A stretch of 64,000 bases of DNA from a virus, in the IMG/VR virus record IMGVR_UViG_3300025759_000063, positions 1-64,000 of that record; one strand, written 5' to 3'. Under the pieces are notes generated by a model. That model saw only the letters and a list, made by a program, of their open reading frames with translations. It was not told the DNA's origin and ran no database searches. The stretch's first letter is position 1. Every line of letters starts with the position of its first letter. A program made the position numbers and the translations under genes. Below are positions 52,018 through 54,547 of this stretch, piece after piece.

Positions 52018-52050
52018 CTTACACTACTAGAACACTTTAAGGGGCTCAGT
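52018..52050 (-). repeat. 33-bp intergenic repeat, copy R1
   Basis: Plus-strand consensus CTTACACTACTNGNACACTT followed by TAAGKGGCTCAGT. In this copy the flank creates an 8-bp inverted repeat (GCCCCTTA/TAAGGGGC), and part is coding for the upstream gene. Confidence 0.95.
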
Positions 52051-52227
52051 AACTGTTACCACTTCGGGGAACGTCCAACGGAACTCATAAAGTAGCTGCT
52101 CATCACTAACACCTTCCAGATTTTCACGCATATAATCAGACAGTGCACATTCAAGGTCCGAAGGTGTCATTCCGTCGATAGTTGCCTCGACGAGAGCATC
52201 AATCAAAATTTGACGATTAGCAAGCAT
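52027..52227 (-). CDS. hypothetical protein, 66 aa, ending inside repeat R1
   Basis: A helical, acidic protein (MLANRQILIDALVEATIDGM ... YEFRWTFPEVVTVTEPLKVF). The last six codons and the TAG stop are formed by repeat copy R1, so the C-terminus TEPLKVF is repeat-derived; elsewhere the repeat follows the stop. The start is the ATG at 52225-52227. No family recognised. Confidence 0.72.
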   Translation of the reverse strand: MLANRQILIDALVEATIDGMTPSDLECALSDYMRENLEGVSDEQLLYEFRWTFPEVVTVTEPLKVF

Positions 52228-52457: not shown

Positions 52458-52490
52458 CTTACACTACTGCTACACTTTATGTGGCTCAGT
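52458..52490 (-). repeat. 33-bp intergenic repeat, copy R2
   Basis: Copy with ATGTGGCTCAGT instead of AAGKGGCTCAGT. It fills most of the 56-nt gap between the 57-codon and 50-codon genes; the next ATG is 15 nt away. Confidence 0.92.
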
Positions 52491-52499
52491 AACTGTTAC

Positions 52500-52673
52500 T
52501 CACCAACGGTCGGGTGTACTCAAGTCCTCAACATATGCCTCACACTTTTCCGCAGGTTCAAGCTTGAAGAGTTTCTCCCAATCAAGTTGATGAGGGTTAA
52601 AGTCTGCAAGTGCTTCAATCTCCAGAGTGATACGATAACGATGCTTCTGGGCCTGAAGATAACTGAGAGACAT
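52500..52673 (-). CDS. hypothetical protein, 57 aa
   Basis: ATG 52671-52673 with a strong AGGAG 8 nt upstream and TGA at 52500-52502. The product starts MSLSYLQAQKHRYRITLEIE and ends VEDLSTPDRW. The SD, the sigma70-type promoter immediately upstream and the adjacent repeat make it a confident gene although short. It is the first gene leftward of the candidate origin. No family recognised. Confidence 0.78.
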   Translation of the reverse strand: MSLSYLQAQKHRYRITLEIEALADFNPHQLDWEKLFKLEPAEKCEAYVEDLSTPDRW

Positions 52674-52700
52674 GATTCGCTCCTTTGTTGTGACTTGAGT

Positions 52701-52729
52701 ATTCTAGGATATCGGCGCCGAAATGTCAA
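52701..52729 (-). promoter_or_regulatory. sigma70-type promoter for the 57-codon gene
   Basis: TTGACA (52724-52729), 17-bp spacer with GGCGCC, TAGAAT (52701-52706), followed by a strong SD. Host-type early promoter. Confidence 0.85.
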
Positions 52730-52801
52730 GAATCGTCGGAGTATTTATCTGGCACGGTGACAATTTGCGGACCTTATGTGTGGGATTTTTGACCTTGTGG
52801 G

Positions 52802-52830
52802 TTGACAAAGTGCGGTCCTTATGTTATGCT
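52802..52830 (+). promoter_or_regulatory. plus-strand extended -10 promoter facing the iterons
   Basis: TTGACA (52802-52807), 17-bp spacer, TATGCT (52825-52830) preceded by TGT as an extended -10. The expected transcript start, about 52837, is at the first iteron. No plus-strand gene follows, so the product would be a non-coding or primer RNA. Confidence 0.65.
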
Positions 52831-52839
52831 CGCTAAGAT

Positions 52840-52977
52840 CACAAGGTCCTGAGGGCTTTATACACAAGACTTGGAGGGCTTTATACTCAAGGGCCCACAA
52901 GGTCCTGAGGGCTTTATACACAAGACTTGGAGGGCTTTATACTCAAGGGCCCACAAGGTCCTGAGGGCTTTATACAA
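52840..52977. repeat. 56-bp tandem repeat, about 2.5 copies
   Basis: Units start at 52840, 52896 and 52952 (the last partial, first 26 bp). Units 1 and 2 look identical. The subunit GAGGGCTTTATA occurs five times (52851, 52874, 52907, 52930, 52963), with alternating 23/33-bp spacing. Its complement TATAAAGCCCTC resembles a late box only partly. Confidence 0.97.
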
Positions 52978-53001
52978 GATTTCAAGAGCTTTTCAATGAG
53001 T

Positions 53002-53042
53002 TTTTCCACAATTATCAACACTTTTCCACAAGATGTGGAAAA
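53002..53042. other. cluster of cyanobacterial-type DnaA boxes
   Basis: TTTTCCACA at 53002-53010 and 53022-53030, the related TTATCAACA at 53012-53020, and the inverted TGTGGAAAA at 53034-53042. The three direct boxes start exactly 10 bp apart. The last two form a 9-bp perfect palindrome with a 3-nt centre. TTTTCCACA is the known cyanobacterial DnaA box. Confidence 0.75.
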
Positions 53043-53092
53043 CTATAAAACTCTTAGCTATATTTTTTTAACCATTTATTAAATTAAAAACA

Positions 53093-53125
53093 TAAAAAAA
53101 AAAAAAAACACCCCTTGAGGGTGTT
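53093..53125 (-). terminator. terminator with long T tract
   Basis: A 7-bp stem (53107-53113 with 53119-53125) is followed on the minus strand by about 14 T. It directly follows the TAA of the 50-codon membrane gene and shields the origin-like region from minus-strand transcription. Confidence 0.93.
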
Positions 53126-53278: not shown

Positions 53279-53611
53279 TCAACCCAGACGCATCGAAGAG
53301 AAGAAAGGAACGGTAGTTAGTCCTTGAACAGTGTTCATCTTAAGAAACCATTCTCCTGCTTTTTGGAATACACGATCACCACATTCTCCGTGTGCTTGAA
53401 GAATAGCATTCAGGCGAGACTTAGTGGTATTGGATTGCCAACCACCATCAAATAAGCGAAGAAAAGTCTCACCAATCTCTGCAATCTTTTTACCATGAAG
53501 GAATACAATAGAGAGATCATTTTGCTCATCATAGGTAACAACAGTATTGGCACTTTTCCAATTCTCGTTGTTAGTGATGGCATCATTCATTTGCTTTTCG
53601 ATCTTACGCAT
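53279..53611 (-). CDS. conserved hypothetical early protein, 110 aa
   Basis: MRKIEKQMNDAITNNENWKS, later KIAEIGETFLRLFDGGWQSN and TTKSRLNAILQAH, ending VPFFSSMRLG. I recall closely similar proteins in many cyanomyoviruses, in the same type of small-gene region. Mixed alpha/beta, no catalytic motif. It starts 27 nt after repeat copy R3 and is followed by the 50-codon membrane gene in one transcript. Confidence 0.82.
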   Translation of the reverse strand: MRKIEKQMNDAITNNENWKSANTVVTYDEQNDLSIVFLHGKKIAEIGETFLRLFDGGWQSNTTKSRLNAILQAHGECGDRVFQKAGEWFLKMNTVQGLTTVPFFSSMRLG

Positions 53612-54514: not shown

Positions 54515-54547
54515 GTCTCACTACTAGGACACTTTAAGGGGCTCAGT
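54515..54547 (-). repeat. 33-bp intergenic repeat, copy R4
   Basis: The core is identical to the consensus but the outer end reads TCTCACTAC instead of CTTACACTAC. It overlaps the region just after the stop of the 113-residue gene. Confidence 0.92.

Follow-up and report, generated by a model that had tools for sequence, protein, structure and literature searches.

Described origins closest to the locus

T4-like phages are the textbook case of replication that is independent of the host initiator, and cyanophages are among the most abundant viruses of the ocean. Plasmid-type origins that combine iterons with DnaA boxes include P1 oriR, pSC101 and RK2. The T4 origins oriF and oriG are R-loop origins, in which a promoter points into easily melted DNA; oriE carries direct repeats and an early-type promoter (PMC3016281). 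In cyanobacteria, the DnaA boxes of the chromosomal oriC lie beside dnaN or dnaA. Domain IV of the Cyanothece DnaA binds pairs of such boxes cooperatively, and TTATCAACA is a box found at the origin of the Cyanothece linear chromosome (PMC4674748). The site and mode of replication start in cyanophages appear to be undescribed in the open-licence literature searched, in which no description of DnaA boxes in cyanophages or of the present locus as an origin was found.

The locus lies in a stretch of 64,000 nucleotides (positions 1 to 64,000 of IMGVR_UViG_3300025759_000063, hereafter the window), part of a 112,201-bp IMG/VR contig. Positions 52802-53092 are probably a replication-origin module of a T4-like cyanophage, whose form here would use the host DnaA. 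The module shares with oriF and oriG a promoter facing easily melted DNA, and with oriE the direct repeats and the early-type promoter. It differs from the T4 origins, which share no local motif and for which the T4 review names no DnaA boxes (PMC3016281); T4 uses several origins, whereas one box-bearing locus per genome was seen in cyanophages. Repeats, DnaA boxes and an AT-rich tract are common to the module and the iteron plasmid-type origins; unlike in the latter, no adjacent Rep gene was identified in the phage, and the repeats vary between close relatives. The module and the cyanobacterial oriC are alike in box sequence, 12-bp box pairs and AT-rich DNA beside the boxes. Unlike oriC, the module has neither dnaA nor dnaN next to it, contains fewer boxes and shows no CTACTAC trio-like repeats; a promoter fires into it, its repeats are transcribed, and it belongs to a lytic phage genome.

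Organization of the module

The source phage is, on the basis of gp25, gp6-like baseplate genes and cyanophage PHROG families, a T4-like cyanophage (Kyanoviridae). Nearly all genes around the module are on the minus strand, and no convincing gene was found in 52674-53123. The left-hand neighbour (52500-52673, minus strand; 57 aa; PHROG 12516) is conserved. A 110-aa gene (53279-53611, minus strand; Pfam PF23790, Kyano_Gp96; PHROG 554) often adjoins the module in relatives. The divergent promoter TTGACA-N17-TAGAAT (52701-52729, minus strand) serves the small-gene operon whose first gene is 52500-52673; transcription from the plus-strand promoter is thus opposed to that of all genes. The minus-strand genes on the right side end at an intrinsic terminator (53107-53125, minus strand; stem 53125-53107), whose T-tail corresponds to the poly-A at ~53093-53107.

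The plus-strand promoter is a strong one of the sigma70 type, TTGACA-N17-TATGCT with a TG before the -10 (52802-52830; -35, 52802-52807; -10, 52825-52830), and matches the consensus at 10 of 12 positions; it is the extended -10 promoter of the original prediction. It is followed by a conserved start region, CGCTAAGATCAC, on the same strand. Across seven aligned modules, TTGACA is invariant and CTAAGATCAC is conserved. Repeats, boxes and AT-rich DNA come downstream in this order. A promoter faces the core in 27 of 43 clusters, against 8.6% at random positions.

The 56-bp tandem repeat, also predicted, is found at 52840-52976 (plus strand; 2.4 copies; 100% match); it is iteron-like and lies within the transcribed part. 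Each 56-bp unit contains two GAGGGCTTTATAC sub-repeats, spaced 23/33 bp. The closest relative covering the site (L004) has fewer copies, and other relatives carry different repeats at the same place; since both sequence and number vary among close relatives, the repeats may not be initiator sites. No Rep gene was identified beside them. The GC skew of the transcript strand in the repeat region is only +0.08.

Four DnaA-type boxes are present within 41 bp (53002-53042), as had been claimed: box 1, TTTTCCACA, at 53002-53010; box 2, TTATCAACA, at 53012-53020; box 3, TTTTCCACA, at 53022-53030 (all on the plus strand); and box 4, TTTTCCACA inverted, at 53034-53042 (minus strand). The phase is 10 bp in the window, the starts of the first three boxes (53002/53012/53022) being spaced exactly as predicted. 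These three exact copies of TTTTCCACA are the only ones in the whole contig. Single exact sites are expected 1.3-1.7 times per 64 kb under a Markov model, and three within this span have a chance of ~5e-7 under the same type of model. One-mismatch sites are no more frequent in the window than chance predicts (32 found, 38 expected), so the signal is the exact cluster. A functionless chance cluster of AT-rich 9-mers, suggested by the simple, AT-rich nature of TTTTCCACA and by this lack of excess, has a negligible probability, being refuted by the low chance value and by the reappearance of the cluster at this locus in many divergent phages.

The AT-rich tract (53043-53108) reaches 93% AT. Its candidate unwinding element (53043-53092) adjoins box 4, and the weak stretch continues into the terminator tail. 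The weakest 50 bp (from 53059) are the least stable duplex within 49-63 kb and stand at the 99.95th percentile of the window. The strongly AT-rich tract of the original prediction is thus present, one part of it being the terminator tail: the poly-A at its end is the T-tail of the minus-strand terminator, so that portion has its own explanation. The AT-rich portion before the poly-A is separate from the terminator and is conserved in relatives, including L004. AT-richness next to the boxes is strong in the window and in S-PM2, and modest in S-CAM3 (97th percentile).

Occurrence in other cyanophages

Clusters of exact boxes are found at one locus each in S-PM2, Syn9, S-ShM2, S-SM2, S-CREM1, S-CAM3 and S-RIM32 (whole-record search), sometimes split into two sub-clusters within ~1 kb; several IMG/VR genomes likewise have a single box locus. 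The clusters, that of the window included, are located 3-8 kb upstream of gene 25 in gene direction. The order of the window (TTTTCCACA, TTATCAACA, TTTTCCACA, inverted box) is shared by S-SM2, whose inverted box is imperfect and whose gp25 is only 49% identical. Among 80 IMG/VR loci found by the box-pair pattern alone, 41 adjoin the same neighbour proteins. In clusters unselected for spacing, neighbouring box starts are mostly separated by 12-14 or 21-24 bp, which corresponds to roughly one or two turns of the helix; the set of loci chosen by the 12-bp pair is excluded from this evidence. The cluster, its phasing and its position are therefore conserved, with one locus per genome, when checked in other cyanophages. 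The module is common in Kyanoviridae and not peculiar to this phage.

The exact-box cluster is absent from 12 of the 18 cyanophage isolates of one survey, which have scattered sites or none; the same holds for S-CAM9 and T4, where TTTTCCACA sites are scattered or lacking and form no cluster. When the region was compared at the DNA level with 50,697 phage records, no match was obtained, so what is conserved is the architecture and the motifs, not a long sequence. The complete three-box string was not found in exact form in IMG/VR.

The stretch is built like a bacterial origin and carries the exact binding motif of the host initiator; together with its recurrence at a fixed genomic position in many relatives, this suggests that these viruses borrow the host protein to begin DNA copying.

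In some relatives, small genes close to the main cluster are immediately followed by extra box pairs (L036:4841-4914, L038:1956-2113, L080:2822-2875, L073:4099-4120, L352:4402-4433). A version of these extra sites made of a pair of palindromes, also after small genes, occurs in L361, L372, L381, L389 and L392. The extra pairs seem to switch type (boxes or palindrome) together with the main core. Box pairs placed after small genes suggest a further or different role of the boxes.

Exchangeable core

The flanks of the core are ~98% identical between the window and L004, whose neighbouring protein is 91% identical: 178 of 182 bases match through the promoter, and the AT tract and beyond align over 217 bases with 5 mismatches and 8 gaps. 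Yet the TTTTCCACA box core is missing in L004, where TGATACGAATTCATATCA occupies the slot along with a second copy, half similar to it, and one TTATCAACA that has remained. The palindrome TGATATGAATTCGTATCA replaces the box core there, and it occupies the same slot in other cyanophages (L004:5573-5612; L357, ~5565; L360-L403). The box core is exchangeable, given that a different site takes the place of the TTTTCCACA boxes in the nearest relative. The nearest contig whose neighbour protein is identical (L002) ends inside the AT-rich tract.

The palindrome is present in 44 IMG/VR stretches and in the isolate SynMITS9220M01; all 19 other records tested lack it. Of the 44 stretches, 35 have it next to the same neighbour genes, and none (0/44) also contains a box cluster. 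Both forms of the core keep the promoter and the AT-rich tract; Bellamy has the promoter and the AT tract and neither core.

An initiator-binding core would be expected to behave in this way, being swapped for another site while its flanks stay constant; the swap is also a warning that the protein reading the boxes may not be DnaA in all phages. The Kyanoviridae could possess a modular origin whose core cassette is exchanged between host DnaA boxes and a palindrome for another initiator, the promoter and the unwinding element being kept; this is put forward tentatively, at somewhat short of even chances. If true, initiation in lytic T4-like phages alternates between a host-DnaA-dependent mode and another, and the exchangeable core is a natural experiment on initiator specificity.

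Relation to host DnaA and oriC

TTTTCCACA is the cyanobacterial DnaA box, and the same box is found in cyanobacterial and picocyanobacterial oriCs; the consensus named in the original prediction is thus borne out by the genomes of both groups. Five cyanobacterial genomes of 6-8 Mb each contain one or two copies of the pair TTTTCCACA-N3-TTTTCCACA (12 bp), located in oriC-like box clusters; in L206, the pair directly follows a dnaA-like 3′ end (read by eye). Of 292 genomes sampled from the phylum, only 16 had the exact 12-bp pair, and no small genome was among these; the pair as such is thus not universal.

Picocyanobacterial genomes were recognised by the carboxysomal carbonic anhydrase CsoSCA, CsoS2 having failed as a marker. 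They carry TTTTCCACA or one-letter variants upstream of dnaN, with three exact copies in two of them; the box is thus present in their oriCs, at spacings other than that of the 12-bp pair. In these oriCs (L404-L433; upstream of dnaN in L416, L421, L429 and L433), the last box is followed by a conserved CTACTACTAC-like run, resembling DnaA-trio repeats. A simple pattern search found no such repeats beside the boxes in the modules of the window, S-PM2 and S-CAM3. DnaA-trio repeats are not present in every oriC.

A phage-encoded DnaA was also sought: none was recognisable in 14 cyanophage records, and no DnaA domain IV was found in them.

Proposed mechanism and alternatives

The best reading is that the main form of a modular origin recruits the host DnaA, with the facing promoter serving to open or prime it. 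Origin function, DnaA binding, unwinding and priming are all features that we infer from the sequence. Host DnaA would bind the helically phased TTTTCCACA and TTATCAACA boxes. RNA polymerase would start at the plus-strand promoter, transcribe the repeats and enter the boxes and the AT-rich tract against the direction of all genes. This facing transcription would add negative supercoiling and perhaps an R-loop. DnaA binding and transcription together would melt the AT-rich tract. The phage helicase and primase would then be loaded and the replisome assembled, the transcript being a possible first primer in an R-loop, as at T4 origins. The relatives with the other core would have a palindromic site for a different initiator in the slot. 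The T4 origins are the precedent for the transcription, melting and loading or priming steps, and oriE for the repeats with an early promoter (PMC3016281).

Several observations restrict this reading. A universal requirement for host DnaA is excluded by the lack of the exact-box cluster in 12 of the 18 isolates and in the nearest relative. Nor is a need for DnaA obvious, since T4-like phages bring their own helicase and, in many cases, the loader gp59. The cumulative GC skew of S-PM2 and S-CAM3 shows neither an inflection nor an extremum at the cluster, as far as a skew that may follow gene direction can indicate. An origin with host-type boxes is favoured by the boxes, their conservation and the facing promoter, whereas the skew inflection sought as a sign of it is lacking in these two phages.

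Another possibility, rather unlikely, is an origin whose boxes are read by a phage-encoded protein or by a host protein other than DnaA, in either case of DnaA-like specificity; the palindrome would then belong to the same system with a changed specificity. The core does alternate between boxes and TGATATGAATTCGTATCA in the same slot, in a mutually exclusive manner, and the secondary sites after small genes seem to follow, as is expected of a coevolving phage protein. The box sequence and the 12-bp pair are nevertheless those of the host oriC, TTATCAACA as a further box also fits DnaA, and no candidate gene for such a reader was found.

The boxes could instead sequester or redirect host DnaA, either as a decoy that is present on many phage copies and halts host replication or through regulation of the antisense promoter by DnaA, with no origin here. 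This is quite unlikely: three to five boxes at one locus would be a weak sponge, and the least-stable DNA, the repeats and the swap to a non-DnaA site with promoter and AT tract kept are left unexplained. Box clusters are nonetheless able to titrate DnaA (E. coli datA), which is also a transcription factor, and additional box pairs occur between small genes in some phages.

An antisense or regulatory RNA unit is improbable. Promoter and repeats would here produce a structured non-coding RNA, and inverted boxes would act in the RNA as hairpins or belong to a terminator. The predicted fold of the plus-strand transcript is indeed more stable than those of shuffled sequences (z -3.9, a value inflated by tandem repeats) and some box pairs are inverted; many clusters, however, contain only direct repeats, which makes hairpins impossible, box spacing follows the DNA helix, and no Rfam family reaches its cut-off. 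A match to SprD (28 bits; cut-off 100) was dismissed as poly-T and AT noise.

The host-DnaA origin, if real and conserved in many T4-like phages, would link their replication to a host factor and to the cell cycle of the host. Isolates such as S-PM2, Syn9 and S-CREM1 make the question open to a direct test.

Additional observations

Open frames that start like GIY-YIG nucleases (e.g. MARGIIYLILNKQ, MAYIYSITNLESNKLYVGKT; read by eye) occur just after the box cluster in L100, L115, L118, L131, L138 and L149; these are possibly origin-adjacent homing endonucleases. A gene for a D12-class adenine DNA methyltransferase (PF02086; 59138-59956 of the window) is located ~6 kb from the module. An intergenic element around CTCAGTAACTGTTAC, following TTACACTACT..ACACTTTAAG, recurs at 52045-52059 and 52485-52499 of the window and, in weaker form, at 54542 and 56742. 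It lies between small genes of the variable region, with 10 matches (three mismatches or fewer) against 1.7 expected, and may be an operon-spacing or promoter element.
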